Translations under genes and position numbers: made by a program
Source: a bacterium
Lineage (GTDB): Bacteria; B130-G9
NCBI GenBank assembly: GCA_021160245.1
Contig: JAGHCW010000026.1
Span: forward strand, 1-14,662
DNA: 14,662 nt
Reading direction: 5' to 3'
In this document: in pieces, positions 2,717 to 14,662 of the stretch
How the letters are laid out: each line of letters starts with the position of its first letter
Position numbering within the stretch: the stretch's first letter is position 1
The notes under the pieces: model-generated
What the model saw: only the letters and a program-made list of their open reading frames with translations
Told to the model about the DNA's origin: nothing
Database searches by the model: none

Positions 2717-3520
2717 ATGCCCTACAATCCATTCTTTGAATATGATGACATCCGAGTCTTCAAAGATGATTTCGTCTCTACGACCTACGTGAAAGACGGT
2801 GAGATTGACCTTATAGTAACTTCACCGCCTTACAACGTTCAGATCGACTACGGCTCCTACGACGATCAGACGTCCTACGCCTCATACCTCGATTTCACGC
2901 GACGATGGCTACTCAAGGCCCTATCAGTGCTGAAAGATGACGGGCGCTTGTGCCTCAACATCCCGCTGGATAAGAACAAGGGGGGCCAGCAGTGCGTATT
3001 TGCCGACATCATGGGCATCGCAAAAGACGTCGGCCTAAAATATCATTCGACCGTCATCTGGAATGAGCAGAATATCTCGAGGCGCACGGCCTGGGGCTCG
3101 TGGCTTTCGGCAAGCGCGCCTTATGTGATCGCGCCGGTCGAAATGATCGCCATTCTCTACAAGAATTCGTGGAAGAAGACGAGTGGTTCCGGGAAATCGG
3201 ACATAGACAAGCAGGACTTTATGGAGTGGACAAACGGTGTCTGGACATTCTCTGGCGAGAGCAAGAAGCGCATTGGCCATCCGGCGCCGTTCCCGGTTGA
3301 GCTTCCGAGAAGGTGTGTAAAGCTCTTCACATTCGTCGGTGACGTTGTCCTGGACCCATTCCTGGGCAGCGGGACAACATTGCTTGCCTGCGCGCTCACC
3401 GAAAGATGCGGCATTGGTGTGGAAGTTGATCCGGATTACTGCAAACTGGCGGTAGAACGACTAGTGAACGACGCAAACATAAAACAACGTAAGCTCGCTG
3501 TTTTCCGCGAGTCCGCATGA
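2717..3520 (+). CDS. Site-specific DNA amino-methyltransferase (m4C or m6A), beta class, 267 aa
   Basis: Transfers a methyl group from S-adenosylmethionine to an exocyclic amino group of cytosine or adenine in DNA. Catalytic motif IV is T35-S-P-P-Y39-N and precedes the SAM-binding motif I, L212-D-P-F-L-G-S-G-T-T221; this order defines the beta class. DGRLCLNI (about 75-82) and VIWNEQN (about 113) fit the intermediate motifs, the target-recognition segment probably lies near 115-180, and HPAPFPVELP fits motif X. GVEVDPDYC is motif II. Ser in SPPY is commoner in N4-cytosine enzymes but does not exclude adenine. At 267 aa it is compact but complete. The ATG at 2717 has only a weak purine-rich site; an earlier ATG at 2708 hits a stop at once. 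No restriction endonuclease is visible nearby, so it looks like an orphan enzyme, possibly linked to the NYN gene downstream. Confidence 0.88.
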   Translation: MPYNPFFEYDDIRVFKDDFVSTTYVKDGEIDLIVTSPPYNVQIDYGSYDDQTSYASYLDFTRRWLLKALSVLKDDGRLCLNIPLDKNKGGQQCVFADIMGIAKDVGLKYHSTVIWNEQNISRRTAWGSWLSASAPYVIAPVEMIAILYKNSWKKTSGSGKSDIDKQDFMEWTNGVWTFSGESKKRIGHPAPFPVELPRRCVKLFTFVGDVVLDPFLGSGTTLLACALTERCGIGVEVDPDYCKLAVERLVNDANIKQRKLAVFRESA

Positions 3521-3634: not shown

Positions 3635-4252
3635 TTGAGCGCTGAATATATACAAGGGCAAAGAATCGCGATATTCGTTGACGGCTGGAACTTCAAATAT
3701 GCCACTTACGACTCATTTGGGATACAGGTCGATTTCAAAAAAATGTTGGATTATTTCTCAAAGGGCTCGATCCTCCTAAGAGCCTATTACTACACCGGGG
3801 AATGGAATGACGAGGCCATCGACCACTATATAGACCTGACCAACCCGTCGAATCAGGACGACAAGAAGGCCGAACTGACGAGTCAGCGGGACGATCAACG
3901 GAAGTTTTGGCGCTTTCTGGACCGCAACGGGTACAGAGTAATTCGAAAGCCCATACGCGTCTCCAAGGACGTCCGAGGTGAGATACAGGTCAAGGCCGAC
4001 CTCGACCTCGAACTCGCCATCGACATGCTCACGCTCGCGGACAGATGCGACAAGATGATTCTCGTCTCCGGTGATGGCGATTTCGTCCCCCTTCTGAACG
4101 CCCTAGCTCAACGAGGCGTGCGTATAGCCGTCGTAAGCACCCAACACTCAGAAGCGTTCAGAAGGGCTCATTATCGCGCCTCGGATGACCTCTTGGATGC
4201 TGCCGATGAGTTCATTAGCGTGGAAAGCATCCGCAACTCCATTGAGCGATAA
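3635..4252 (+). CDS. NYN domain protein, LabA/DUF88 family (predicted PIN-like nuclease), 205 aa
   Basis: The NYN fold is a PIN-like nuclease fold, and family members are predicted metal-dependent RNases. The first acidic motif is F14-V-D16-G-W-N19. A second acidic cluster is K120-A-D122-L-D-L-E-L-A-I-D130. The third is S145-G-D147-G-D149-F, followed by VPLLNALAQRGVRIAVVS. These three blocks are the hallmark of the family and all acidic positions are present, so it is probably active. The start is a TTG preceded at 8 nt by GGAAGG (3621-3626); the next in-frame ATG would remove the first catalytic Asp. The last 40 residues (acidic, ending SIRNSIER) have no assigned role. It sits 114 nt after the DNA methyltransferase on the same strand. 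The RNA or DNA target cannot be deduced. Confidence 0.88.
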   Translation: MSAEYIQGQRIAIFVDGWNFKYATYDSFGIQVDFKKMLDYFSKGSILLRAYYYTGEWNDEAIDHYIDLTNPSNQDDKKAELTSQRDDQRKFWRFLDRNGYRVIRKPIRVSKDVRGEIQVKADLDLELAIDMLTLADRCDKMILVSGDGDFVPLLNALAQRGVRIAVVSTQHSEAFRRAHYRASDDLLDAADEFISVESIRNSIER

Positions 4253-4647: not shown

Positions 4648-4654
4648 AGAGGAG
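4648..4654 (+). promoter_or_regulatory. Shine-Dalgarno site that sets the start at 4663
   Basis: AGAGGAG lies 8 nt before the ATG at 4663. The reading frame is open back to an ATG at 4558, but that start has no such site and would place 35 unlike residues before a clean signal peptide. Confidence 0.85.
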
Positions 4655-4662
4655 AATCGAAG

Positions 4663-6924
4663 ATGAAGCAGCGGACTAACATTATTCCAGTTCTGCTGGT
4701 ACTCTGTGTCCTGCTCTCCGTCAGCGCACAAATGGCGATTGCCAAATCGGTCGGCGTTGAATGGATCAACAACTTCGCCGGAACCGTCAACGACCGCTCA
4801 CATTGGGACGAGTCGGCCAAAGGACTCTACAATGAGATGACTGCAGATGGTTGGTCCGGCAAGTTCTGCTGGGGCAACGCGGACGCTTGGATGTCTGATT
4901 TCACTACTGGCAACAGCTCTTGGATAGATTCTGTTGACCTAGCATTGATCGGCACACACGGCGCGTACAACTGGGACGACTTCTGGGGAGATAACCACAG
5001 CTCTGTCATGTTCAGCACCGGATCGTCCGACTCGTTTATGCATCCCGGTCAGGTCTATAACCTCTGGGGCAACAACAACCTGGAGTGGATAGCGCTGGAT
5101 TGCTGCAGCGTGCTTCGAGACCACAGTGTCGGGCACTGGTCACATGCTATGAACGGGTTGCATCTGCTCATGGGCTTTAAGAACACCATGTATGTCTCTC
5201 TGCCGGGTGACGGCCAGAAGTGGGGCGAGTACATGTCCGGCAACTGGTTCTGGCTTTGGGACATTCCATATAATGTCACTCAGTCATGGTTCCTCGCGGT
5301 TGACTATGTTCAACCTCATGGCTGGACAACAGTAACGGCCAGAGTTCTTGCTGAGGTCTCTGACAACTACAACGACTATGCTTGGGGCGAGGGTTACGTA
5401 TCGACGGACCCGGTCAAGGATGGCTGGTATCACATTTGGGACCACGATGCAGCTTGCAAGCCGCCGAGGCGCAACCTGGATGCTGAGGACATGCTTCTTT
5501 ACACCGTGGACAGAACCGGTGTGAGTGAAGACCATGTCGCCGAAATCGCGAAGAACCTGGGCTTCTCTGGCGAGGTCGAGTTCTGCGAAGATGGCTATTA
5601 CCGCGCGACGGATGCAGTCAATGACAACACGTACTTCCAGATGCATGAAACTGGAGCTTTGCTCTATGCGAACATGGACAAGCTCTTCATAGTGCCTGAA
5701 GAAGCACCGGCTCTTTTGGGTGAAAAGAGCATTGGAGCTGCTGCGGAGTTCTTGAGTGCGGCGGGCATCGTATTTGATGGCCTGGGCGCTCCAGAGTTTA
5801 TGACAGAGACGGTTTTCGAGTTTGACAGGGATAAGGACACCAAAGAGCCAGTTAGTGAGATGCCCGTGATGGATTGTGTGTTCTTCCCACACGAGATTAC
5901 ACATAACCAAACAACATATTCCGTCGTTGGCCCAGGCGCCAAATTGAAGGTTTACCTCGGGGACCGTGGAGAGGTCCTGGGATGTCTGGGTGGCTGGCGC
6001 TCGCTCCAAGAAGGCAAGGAGACCGAGGTTCTCTCTGCTGATGAGGCCCTTGAGCTAGTGTACAAGTATAGAGACAAGGTGTCGTTGGCCAAGCTACCGG
6101 CATACGAGAGCTTCGAGGTGAAGGACGCGACGCTCTGCTACTACGAGGACGCTTGTGAGACGAAAGCCACGACACTTTTCCCGACATGGCTGTTCACCGG
6201 CGAGTTCTTTACCAAAGAAGGCAGACAAGGAGGTTCTTTCGAGGGCGACTTGTTTGTGCCAGCGGTTCCGGATTTCATACCACCTGTTGTGGAGATCCCC
6301 CAGCCGATAGACAATGCCTCGTTCGAACCTGGAGAGGACATTCAGTTTGTCGCGGAGGTCTCTTACGGCTTTGGCAATTCCACAATCCAGTGGTTCTCTG
6401 ATCAAGACGGCTACTTGGGCGAGGGCCGGGTTATTACGACGACGCTGAGTGCGGCCTCAAGAGCTGGCGAGATAATGACTCACAGCGTTAAGGCAATCGC
6501 GACCGATTCTGCCGGGAAAATAGGCACGGCAGTCGTAACGGTGCTTATAGGCAAGGATCAGGCGGCACCATGGGTCTATCTCACGCTTAACAACACGATG
6601 TTCAACCAGGGTGAAGATCTGAAGCTGTTCATCTCAGGCGGTAACAACAGCGTGGGGCGCAATGTCAACGTTTATGTATTCCTCGTGACTCCAGATTCGA
6701 GGCTACTTTTCTGGCCGTGGTGGACGGGTCTTGCAGTCCCAATGACACTGTATTTCCCGGCATCGTTTGAGATTCTGGACCTTCCCATCCTCGACGCAAC
6801 GCTTCCGTGCATGACGCCGCGCATTGGGGCCGGAGGCAACTACAGCTTCTGGGCCTTCTTAACGGACACCAGCACGAACGAGATGATTGGGACGTTCAGC
6901 GAGGTTGGCTTTACAATGTACTAG
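4663..6924 (+). CDS. Secreted multidomain protein, DUF6345-like with putative caspase-fold (clan CD) domain, 753 aa
   Basis: Residues 1-27 are a signal peptide (basic MKQR, hydrophobic core PVLLVLCVLL, AIA cleavage). Residues 29-265 form a Trp-rich domain resembling, from memory, proteins labelled DUF6345. In it LALIGTH99G and IALDCC148S each follow a hydrophobic strand and lie 49 residues apart, the pattern and approximate spacing of the His/Cys dyad in clan CD peptidases (caspase, gingipain). Residues 290-535 are an acidic alpha/beta region, perhaps PepSY-like, including a YSVVGPGAKLKVYLGDRG strand pair. Residues 540-630 look like an Ig/PKD-like beta sandwich (FEPGEDIQF...HSVKAIATDSAG). Residues 637-753 form a C-terminal beta domain (MFNQGEDLKLFIS...PDSRLLFWP...GNYSFWAFLTD). 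It is likely exported to periplasm or surface. Proteolytic activity is inferred, not shown. The gene appears monocistronic, with a hairpin after the stop. Confidence 0.8.
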   Translation: MKQRTNIIPVLLVLCVLLSVSAQMAIAKSVGVEWINNFAGTVNDRSHWDESAKGLYNEMTADGWSGKFCWGNADAWMSDFTTGNSSWIDSVDLALIGTHGAYNWDDFWGDNHSSVMFSTGSSDSFMHPGQVYNLWGNNNLEWIALDCCSVLRDHSVGHWSHAMNGLHLLMGFKNTMYVSLPGDGQKWGEYMSGNWFWLWDIPYNVTQSWFLAVDYVQPHGWTTVTARVLAEVSDNYNDYAWGEGYVSTDPVKDGWYHIWDHDAACKPPRRNLDAEDMLLYTVDRTGVSEDHVAEIAKNLGFSGEVEFCEDGYYRATDAVNDNTYFQMHETGALLYANMDKLFIVPEEAPALLGEKSIGAAAEFLSAAGIVFDGLGAPEFMTETVFEFDRDKDTKEPVSEMPVMDCVFFPHEITHNQTTYSVVGPGAKLKVYLGDRGEVLGCLGGWRSLQEGKETEVLSADEALELVYKYRDKVSLAKLPAYESFEVKDATLCYYEDACETKATTLFPTWLFTGEFFTKEGRQGGSFEGDLFVPAVPDFIPPVVEIPQPIDNASFEPGEDIQFVAEVSYGFGNSTIQWFSDQDGYLGEGRVITTTLSAASRAGEIMTHSVKAIATDSAGKIGTAVVTVLIGKDQAAPWVYLTLNNTMFNQGEDLKLFISGGNNSVGRNVNVYVFLVTPDSRLLFWPWWTGLAVPMTLYFPASFEILDLPILDATLPCMTPRIGAGGNYSFWAFLTDTSTNEMIGTFSEVGFTMY

Positions 6925-11433: not shown

Positions 11434-12216
11434 CTATTCGACGTTCTTCTCTGACCTAATCTCCACGCAGTCAGACCTACTTCCTGCTGTTCCGCAGACT
11501 TTCAGAAGACCGACATCGCCATTCGAGCGGAAGACCGTCTGAGCCGTTCCCTCTGCATTCGTGATAACAACATCCGAATCAAACGTGGCATTCGCGCCGC
11601 CCGTAACAGCAAAATAGACAGACACGCCCGTTATTGAGGCGCCATGCTCCCCTATTACTGTCGCGCTTATCACGGCATAGCCATTGTCTGCATCCGTTAT
11701 GACGCTACGATCCGAGTTCACTACTATCTGAGAAACCCGGTCGCCCTGTGGCAGGAAAACTACCTCAACTGTATCAATCACATAGCTGCTATCTGCGCCG
11801 TAGTCAATGATCGCCGTAATAATTTTCTGGCCAGGGAAATCACCATTGGGGCTGTGGTCAGGATCGTACCTTAACCAGAAGCACGCGTTGTCCACCACCT
11901 CACCCGAGATGATGCTGTCTCCGTTCTCAAAAAATCCCCCGGCTGCCGTCACGTTAACGGCCACAGGCTCGTCCAATTCCTCGCCGTATCCGTTCTTCAC
12001 ATCGATCATTATCAGACTGTGGTCGTAGGGATAAATCTCCGAGGGGCTTGCAGTTATCGTAAGCCTGTATGGTGAAGATGGTCCCGCCGGAGACTCGTCT
12101 CTGCCCGAATCTGATCTCGAACAGGCAAGGCCAAACGCCAATGCGCCTGCAATCAACATAACTACAAATATGGTTGTCCACCTGGGGCAACCAGCAAGCC
12201 GACAACCTTTTTGCAT
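11434..12216 (-). CDS. Lipoprotein with two Ig-like (Big-type) modules, 260 aa
   Basis: The N-terminus has basic residues, then hydrophobic IFVVMLIAGALAFGLA ending in a Cys (residue 33), followed by SRSDSGRDESPAGPSS. This fits a signal peptidase II site with a flexible linker, so the protein is probably anchored in the outer membrane. Two beta-sandwich modules follow. The first, about 48-150, begins YRLTITASPSEIYPYDHS; the second, about 155-255, contains VISATVIGEHGASITGVSVYF and ITNAEGTAQTVF, typical of bacterial Ig-like group 1 (invasin-like) repeats. The start at 12216 is chosen because GGAGG lies 6 nt before it; the longer frame from 12255 has no ribosome site. It is the last gene of the cluster, 42 nt after the 174-aa gene, with the terminator downstream. 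Specific function unknown; a structural or adhesive surface role is inferred. Confidence 0.82.
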   Translation of the reverse strand: MQKGCRLAGCPRWTTIFVVMLIAGALAFGLACSRSDSGRDESPAGPSSPYRLTITASPSEIYPYDHSLIMIDVKNGYGEELDEPVAVNVTAAGGFFENGDSIISGEVVDNACFWLRYDPDHSPNGDFPGQKIITAIIDYGADSSYVIDTVEVVFLPQGDRVSQIVVNSDRSVITDADNGYAVISATVIGEHGASITGVSVYFAVTGGANATFDSDVVITNAEGTAQTVFRSNGDVGLLKVCGTAGSRSDCVEIRSEKNVE

Positions 12217-12222
12217 CAGAAG

Positions 12223-12227
12223 CCTCC
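12223..12227 (-). promoter_or_regulatory. Shine-Dalgarno site deciding the lipoprotein start
   Basis: GGAGG on the minus strand, 6 nt before the ATG at 12216. No comparable purine run precedes the upstream in-frame ATG at 12255, so the shorter protein with a compact signal sequence is preferred. Confidence 0.8.
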
Positions 12228-12258
12228 GTCTATAACTGAATGCTCTTACGATCATTAT

Positions 12259-12995: not shown

Positions 12996-14662
12996 CTACT
13001 CTTCCGGCGGCGCCTCCTCCTCCTCTTCTTCTTCCTCTTCTGCCTTCACGAAGACAGTCGCTGTTGCACAGTCATCAAGATCGTCACATACCTTAACTAT
13101 ATATGTGCCTTCAGTTCCAAACGTGCCCAAGAACGTCTCATACTCTCCTGTTGCGGTGCCGTATAAGACGTCATCTATGAACCAGTGATACGTCTTGGAG
13201 CAGCCGCCCCATGCCGTAAACGTTGCGGCCTCGCCTTCCATAAGCGACCCGGCAGTTGGCGAGATGCGCACGCAGAACTGAGCGCCGAAGTTGACCGAGA
13301 TATTGGTTGATATACCGCCAAACTCATCCGACCTCGCCCTAAGCAGCGCGCGGCCTCCACCAGTCGCATCCAGACTCAGATGCACATAACCGTCGGAATC
13401 CGTCGCCTCACCAATCCACTGCGTCCCTGTATCGTCGTTGAAGTAGGCAATCGCGGTCGGGTTGCTGAAGTTGTCGATCCATACAGTTACGTTCTTTCCG
13501 GCGATCGGCGTCCCGTCGGACTTATTCCTCAACTGCACCCACACATCAGCGAAGCACTGATCCGTAACGGTATCCTCGTCATCCTCAGTCGCGCCCGGAT
13601 CGACCTTTACACAGACATCCACCGGGGTCACGTTGAAGGCTAGCTCGTAACAGCCTGGGCCGCCACGCTCAAACATCACGTGCTCTGTCTTCCAGACAAC
13701 CGGCGGGGTCTGGCCCGCCTGGTCACAGAAGTCGCAATACTCCTGAGCTATTCGGGCGGATTCAAAGGACTTCCCATTCAAGCAATGGCCCTTCAATCTC
13801 TCGCTTACGCGGCCCTTATTATCCGTCGCATACGTTATCGTATTTGTCCCGGATGATGTGAATATACCATAATTACTTGTCATCTCGACGGCCACGCCGA
13901 TTACCGGATACCCATCGCTGTCCTCGACTGCGGCGCTGAGAATGGTCTCCTCAGAACCGTCCTCCAGTATGGAGTAGTCCAAGGCGCTTACACTCTTTAT
14001 CCCGATCTTGCGGAATCTGAAGCTAATCGCCTCCCTGTGCGTCGCTTCACCTACGGCATAATCAGCCCAAATGCTCACGTTGCTATCCGGATTCGTCGGA
14101 TCGTCCCAGAGCATCACACTCGTCGTCATCTTTGTCGTCGCCACGCCCTGACCGTCAGTTATGATCGGAGAGCCACAACGCTCTATACATCCGTTCTCGC
14201 AGCCGAAAGTGACCGGAGCCCCCTCGACTGGAAGGTCATTTTTGTTCTTCAAGACTGCTTTCAATGTAACTCTTGTCAGCCCGTCGGCAGCTGCGCTGGA
14301 GCCATCCGAGAACGCGCCATCGCTCGTTGCCGTCAGCTCTATCGAGTAATCCTCCGGCTCGAAAACCATCGTCTCGTCGGCGCTTGGCCTGCTGCTCTCT
14401 GTCCCTGGACATACATAATCCACAGTGACCGCGCTAATCATACAATCGCCAGTCGAGGCATTGCTGAAGAACTTAGCGGTCGCCACACCCATAGCGTCTG
14501 TGACCTCCGTGCTGGTCCTCCCACCTGACTTCGAGAAGACGACTCCATCAAGCTCCGCGGAGAACGTTATCGTCTCGCCCGCAATCGGCCGGCCATTTGT
14601 CGTCAGAACCGCCGTCGCCTCAACCTCTGAGCCATCGGCCTTGGCCAGCATTGGGTTAATCA
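12996..14662 (-). CDS. Large multi-module Ig-like surface protein, C-terminal 554 residues visible, 5' end outside window
   Basis: The frame stays open to the window edge (INP precedes the first visible Met) and the first visible residues already match an Ig-like module, so the gene certainly starts beyond 14662. About five beta-sandwich modules follow one another. The first two or three have the ADGxxxVTxxAxVxDxxGxPVxGxxVTF pattern of bacterial Ig-like group 1 (invasin/intimin-type) domains with GVATAKF or GVATTKM linking strands. The last (about 465-535) is PKD-like (HWFIDD...GTEGTYIVKVCDD). Many cysteines (FGCENGCIERCG, YCDFC, VCDDLDDC) suggest disulfide bonding outside the cytoplasm. The C-terminus is AEEEEEEEEEAPPEE: nine consecutive Glu, no sortase motif and no visible beta-barrel anchor. 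Function inferred as cell-surface adhesion or scaffold. It is the first visible gene of the minus-strand cluster. Confidence 0.82.
   Translation of the reverse strand, partial: INPMLAKADGSEVEATAVLTTNGRPIAGETITFSAELDGVVFSKSGGRTSTEVTDAMGVATAKFFSNASTGDCMISAVTVDYVCPGTESSRPSADETMVFEPEDYSIELTATSDGAFSDGSSAAADGLTRVTLKAVLKNKNDLPVEGAPVTFGCENGCIERCGSPIITDGQGVATTKMTTSVMLWDDPTNPDSNVSIWADYAVGEATHREAISFRFRKIGIKSVSALDYSILEDGSEETILSAAVEDSDGYPVIGVAVEMTSNYGIFTSSGTNTITYATDNKGRVSERLKGHCLNGKSFESARIAQEYCDFCDQAGQTPPVVWKTEHVMFERGGPGCYELAFNVTPVDVCVKVDPGATEDDEDTVTDQCFADVWVQLRNKSDGTPIAGKNVTVWIDNFSNPTAIAYFNDDTGTQWIGEATDSDGYVHLSLDATGGGRALLRARSDEFGGISTNISVNFGAQFCVRISPTAGSLMEGEAATFTAWGGCSKTYHWFIDDVLYGTATGEYETFLGTFGTEGTYIVKVCDDLDDCATATVFVKAEEEEEEEEEAPPEE
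13014..13040 (-). repeat. Poly-glutamate-coding GAG/GAA tract
   Basis: Nine consecutive Glu codons mixing GAG and GAA near the 3' end of the Ig-like gene. The tract is a purine-only trinucleotide run on the coding strand and could vary in length by slippage in steps of 3 nt without breaking the frame. Confidence 0.8.

Follow-up and report, generated by a model that had tools for sequence, protein, structure and literature searches.

DUF6345 as a candidate family of exported clan CD cysteine peptidases accompanied by a conserved partner domain

Cysteine peptidases of clan CD hydrolyze peptide bonds, usually with a strict P1 preference. Of their catalytic dyad, the His lies where strand 3 ends and the Cys where strand 4 ends, and a conserved glycine stands beside the histidine in all families (PMC4357240). 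His and Cys are 42 residues apart in caspase-7 (His144/Cys186) and 46 in PmC11 (His133/Cys179), and prodomains of the clan are found C-terminally in legumain and N-terminally in gingipain (PMC4357240). The described families with which the present protein can best be compared are C14 (metacaspases and caspases, bacterial PF00656), the gingipain-like C25 (PF01364), and CHAT (PF12770). The stretch of bacterial DNA analyzed here (the window, 14,662 nucleotides in its whole length) contains a gene for a protein of 753 residues with a domain of Pfam family DUF6345 (PF19872), in which the proposed dyad residues are separated by 49 positions. The finding is real, the product of the gene being predicted from sequence to be an exported multidomain protein, and the reading given below is the best available one. 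The gene and the parts of its product are as follows.

4650..4654, + strand: AGGAG ribosome-binding site, 8 bases 5' of the ATG at 4663, read directly from the sequence
4663..6921, + strand: whole coding region, 753 amino acids, followed by the stop codon at 6922-6924
4663..4743, + strand: predicted signal peptide, residues 1-27 (...AQMAIA), recognized by a positively charged start, a hydrophobic core, and A-x-A at its end
4756..5430, + strand: DUF6345 domain, residues 32-256, for which a catalytic role and a caspase fold are proposed (Pfam PF19872, E 8.8e-38; profile alignment with C14, CHAT, and C25)
4957..4959, + strand: H99, the candidate histidine of the dyad, in GTHG where strand 3 ends; 39/39, and in register with its catalytic counterpart in C14, C25, and CHAT
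5104..5106, + strand: C148, the candidate nucleophile of the dyad, in DCC where strand 4 ends; 39/39, and in register with its catalytic counterpart in C14, C25, and CHAT
5458..6252, + strand: middle domain, residues 266-530, proposed regulatory or inhibitory partner, with homologous N-terminal domains in L024, the L016 group, L023, L041, and a Deinococcus protein, and in an adjacent gene in L042
6283..6537, + strand: Ig-like domain, about residues 541-625, with a weak Big_7 match below the cut-off (E 0.55 here, 0.041 in L015)
6568..6900, + strand: terminal module of about 110 amino acids, residues 636-746, common to many exported proteins of the genome, including C25 and S8 peptidases

The N-terminus, MKQRTNIIPVLLVLCVLLSVSAQMAIA, shows the pattern of a typical signal peptide, in agreement with a preliminary description of the sequence, which had taken the protein to be secreted. 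The same description had called it DUF6345-like, and the Pfam match over residues 32-256 (130.4 bits against a gathering cut-off of 26.9, model positions 1-217 of 221) indicates a full-length member. Searches of NCBIfam, PHROGs, and PADLOC with the 753-residue protein gave no match. Pfam states no function for DUF6345, and the family is not named in any paper of the library that was searched. Upstream of the gene, a type II-like DNA methyltransferase (2717-3517, + strand) is adjoined by an NYN-domain (LabA-like) nuclease (3635-4249, + strand), for which no link to the DUF6345 gene was seen. Close to the contig end, proteins with Big_1/invasin-like Ig repeats are encoded at 11434-12252 and 12996-14651 (both on the - strand), the longer of which may be cut by the contig end.

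Whole genomes from across the bacterial phyla were searched with PF19872 and members were detected in 4 of 98 and in 8 of 386 sampled genomes, and in one large phylum in 21 of 400; among the control genomes, the archaeon Methanosarcina acetivorans also possesses a member. A relative, 81% identical over the DUF6345 domain, is encoded in a Candidatus Coatesbacteria MAG, which falls in the same family as the genome of the window. At locus L020 (253-3024, + strand), a papain-family peptidase is joined to DUF6345 via proline-rich repeats; the genome in question has four copies of DUF6345, this fusion included. In Deinococcus peraridilitoris, a plasmid-borne DUF6345 lipoprotein (L196, 2672-4576, + strand) is flanked by IS3 and IS110 transposases; it retains the dyad and also has a middle domain and an Ig-like domain. 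Viral contigs, searched with single proteins and small alignments, gave no further usable DUF6345 relatives, one weak match being judged to be due to chance, and none were present in phage records. Two broad alignments contained no stretch of sufficient conservation for such a scan. A search by sequence of solved structures with DUF6345 gave no match.

Counted from the ATG at 4663, positions 4951-5109 of the window correspond to residues 97-149, and the motif pair noted there at the outset is present as described, VDLALIGTH99G and LEWIALDCC148S with 49 residues between the two marked positions. When 39 DUF6345 domains taken from several phyla are aligned with MAFFT, only H99, C148, and G171 are fully invariant (39/39 each), followed by G100, W159, and G165 (38/39 each), the sole exception at G100 being L042, which reads GHS. 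A diverse subset of 16 members, 12 of which are only 13-29% identical to the protein of the window, retains just four invariant columns, H99, C148, G165, and G171, and beyond the dyad no other Cys and no Asp, Glu, or His column is invariant in it. The preliminary description had left open whether C147 or C148 is the nucleophile, and had proposed that H99 and one of the two should be invariant in homologues. C147 is a Cys only in the closest relatives and is replaced by A, S, T, G, N, or E elsewhere, which rules it out as nucleophile and leaves H99/C148 as the candidate dyad, with C148 as the candidate nucleophile. As the pair is invariant across 39 widely divergent domains, it is more than a chance coincidence of motifs. 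The dyad is therefore conserved with the His preceding the Cys as in clan CD, Gly stands beside the His in 38 of the 39 domains, and the spacing between the two residues varies from 31 to 65 in the family. The Deinococcus protein, which lies outside the 39-domain set, also contains TGHG and AAC. The exception is L041 (2-1729, + strand), a divergent and weak member above the Pfam cut-off that has lost both His and Cys and retains the middle domain, and which, judged by its sequence, is likely a pseudopeptidase.

The 39-row DUF6345 alignment was compared by hhalign with aligned genome-derived domains of C14 (26 domains), C25 (30), and CHAT (28). The match with Peptidase_C14 reached 82.9% (score 43.0) over 119 columns, which begin at strand 1, end shortly after the Cys, and so cover the first four strands, and placed TH99G on SGHG and DCC148 on DAC. 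Matches with CHAT (7.5%, score 26.4; H99 on the His of THG, C148 on SAC) and C25 (3.4%, score 24.4; H99 on GHG, C148 on NC) were weak, and in all three comparisons the H99 and C148 columns fell on the catalytic His and Cys. Controls stayed low: 20 column shuffles per family gave at most 0.3% (score at most 16.0), reversed profiles at most 0.9% (score at most 19.7), response regulators, which have another alpha/beta fold, 0.3% (score 14.4), and unrelated ORF clusters from locus flanks without a caspase-fold protein at most 0.2% (score at most 16.8). One decoy-like ORF cluster reached 2.5% and contains CHAT loci. Accepted pairs within the clan, treated by the same procedure, gave 37.2% (C14-C25), 86.7% (C25-CHAT), and 95.0% (C14-CHAT). 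When H99, G100, and C148 were masked, the match with C14 dropped to 1.5% (score 20.0) and the same register was kept up to the His. The accepted pairs C14-C25 and C25-CHAT also dropped on masking, to 0.8% and 6.7%, respectively, and C14-CHAT stayed at 67.8%. The significance of the DUF6345-C14 match rests mainly on the dyad columns, as is the case for the accepted pair C14-C25, and the relation does not look like one that stands without the active-site columns; because masking affects C14-C25 and C25-CHAT alike, it resembles that between distant clan members.

Compared in detail with C14, DUF6345 shares His-Gly after strand 3, x-x-Cys after strand 4, and the co-linearity from strand 1 to the Cys seen in the profile alignment. 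D146-x-C148 of the window recalls Asp211/Cys213 of TbMCA2, the Asp being a proposed substrate-binding residue (PMC4357240). Only 7 of 39 members have Asp at this position, two before the Cys, and a strong metacaspase-like Asp-x-Cys substrate preference was therefore rejected as a family feature. Unlike in C14, conserved positions follow the Cys in DUF6345 (W159, G165, H167, G171, and W209) for which no counterpart was seen in the aligned part, and the similarity is of the profile-profile kind only, as Pfam C14 is matched by 0 of 16 members at E values up to 10; the models for C25 and CHAT, and any other clan CD model of Pfam, did not match these 16 either. With C25, of which the genome of the window has many, the dyad columns align and one C25 protein of this genome carries the same module at its C-terminus, but the profile score is weak and the C25 protein has a Propeptide_C25 whereas the DUF6345 middle domain matches no Pfam model. 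CHAT likewise shares the aligned dyad columns at a weak score; DUF6345 proteins differ from it in their signal peptides, with a lipoprotein signal in Deinococcus. AlphaFold applied to the DUF6345 domain of the window with a two-row alignment (the window and its 81%-identical relative) gave an unusable model (pLDDT 31.6), and we infer the caspase fold of the domain, as well as its activity, from sequence. The clan CD reading put forward at the outset is thus supported by the invariant H99/C148 pair and the C14 match, with flat decoys.

The preliminary description had also spoken of an acidic middle region and Ig-like C-terminal modules. The middle region does exist, but is a conserved domain of about 265 amino acids homologous to domains of other DUF6345 proteins. 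Compared by hhalign, it matched the N-terminal domain of L024 at 98-99%, that of the L016 group at 95.5%, the product of a gene overlapping DUF6345 in L042 at 95%, L041 at 84.5%, and the Deinococcus plasmid protein at 52.6%; an extended middle-domain profile matched L023 at 97.9% and the C-terminus of L018 at 73.3%. The suspicion that the DUF6345 neighbors in L012 and L044 are middle domains as well was not supported. In the lineage of the window the order is DUF6345, middle domain, Ig-like domain, and terminal module, and elsewhere it is middle domain, Ig-like domain, and DUF6345. The middle domain is thus C-terminal to DUF6345 here, N-terminal to it in other phyla, and encoded by a neighboring gene in one case (L042). 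A narrow profile of it, run against 193 genomes, gave no case in which it occurs without DUF6345. Because it stays with DUF6345 although its position changes, a functional bond between the two domains appears likely. By analogy with the prodomains of legumain and gingipain it may be inhibitory, and we would give somewhat less than even odds to a role in controlling the peptidase, as zymogen or inhibitor module, or in presenting its substrate. Searching solved structures by sequence with the middle domain gave no match. Its AlphaFold model was poor (pLDDT 37.6), and with this model Foldseek listed chains of YycI (2o3o) first, at values that are not significant (E 0.027, TM 0.18), a profile search against YycI giving E 0.41; a YycI-like fold is perhaps a lead.

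With respect to the C-terminal modules, one is indeed Ig-like, its Big_7 match being below threshold, and it aligns together with the middle domain as one unit with L024 and the L016 group. The other is the module of about 110 residues common in the genome. It is beta-rich, has no Pfam name, and is seen N- or C-terminally in at least 20 further exported proteins of the genome (L176-L195). Its carriers include the subtilase L190 and L194, a C25 peptidase that also has Propeptide_C25. The presence of this module in C25 and S8 peptidases and the papain fusion at L020 suggest an exported peptidase by the company kept, which does not amount to proof.

Taken as a whole, the sequence data argue for an exported clan CD cysteine peptidase and a new family candidate with the dyad H99/C148, to which we assign a probability of roughly 0.77. 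Clan CD includes non-hydrolytic or dead members, and a caspase-fold domain whose pocket binds a ligand or carries out another thiol reaction, for example transpeptidation, would be in keeping with the loss of the dyad tolerated in L041 and with the widely varying length of the loops around the dyad (31-65 residues from His to Cys); as His and Cys are strictly kept in all 39 full domains, pointing to catalysis in nearly all members, we consider such a non-peptidase unlikely. We give still less credence to another enzyme class with the order His...Cys (a clan CE or PA(C) peptidase or another alpha/beta hydrolase) in which the likeness to caspases is a convergence of motifs. The match does hang on few columns and the AlphaFold model is unusable, but the alignment begins at strand 1 and most of its register is kept with the dyad masked, three separate caspase-fold families pick the same two columns, and response regulators give nothing.

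A structural role of H99 and C148, in metal binding or in a disulfide with C147 or another Cys, might be thought of for an exported protein with several cysteines; yet C147 is variable, the 16 diverse members share no further invariant Cys or Asp/Glu/His column, and the surroundings of the two residues, HG and xxC, are of a catalytic kind. Such a role is very improbable.

If the protein is an exported clan CD peptidase, the signal peptide would export it and its DUF6345 domain would fold like a caspase, with H99 at the end of strand 3 and C148 at the end of strand 4 forming the His/Cys dyad and G100 helping to form the oxyanion hole. The conserved middle domain, whether it precedes or follows DUF6345 or is the product of a neighboring gene, would control the peptidase or present its substrate, and the Ig-like and terminal modules would hold the protein at the cell surface or on its substrate. 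In a wider and more tentative proposal, which we regard as rather doubtful in its full extent, DUF6345 would constitute a new family of clan CD, present in several bacterial phyla and an archaeon, with the dyad in all but rare dead copies, gated by a single portable partner domain, perhaps YycI-like, placed before, after, or beside the peptidase.

If the peptidase reading is true, a Pfam family of unknown function would obtain a function and an active site, and the caspase clan would gain a family outside C14, C25, and CHAT. H99 and C148 are two named residues to mutate, and the partner domain, constant in its company and variable in its position, poses the question of whether it inhibits, folds, or feeds the enzyme.
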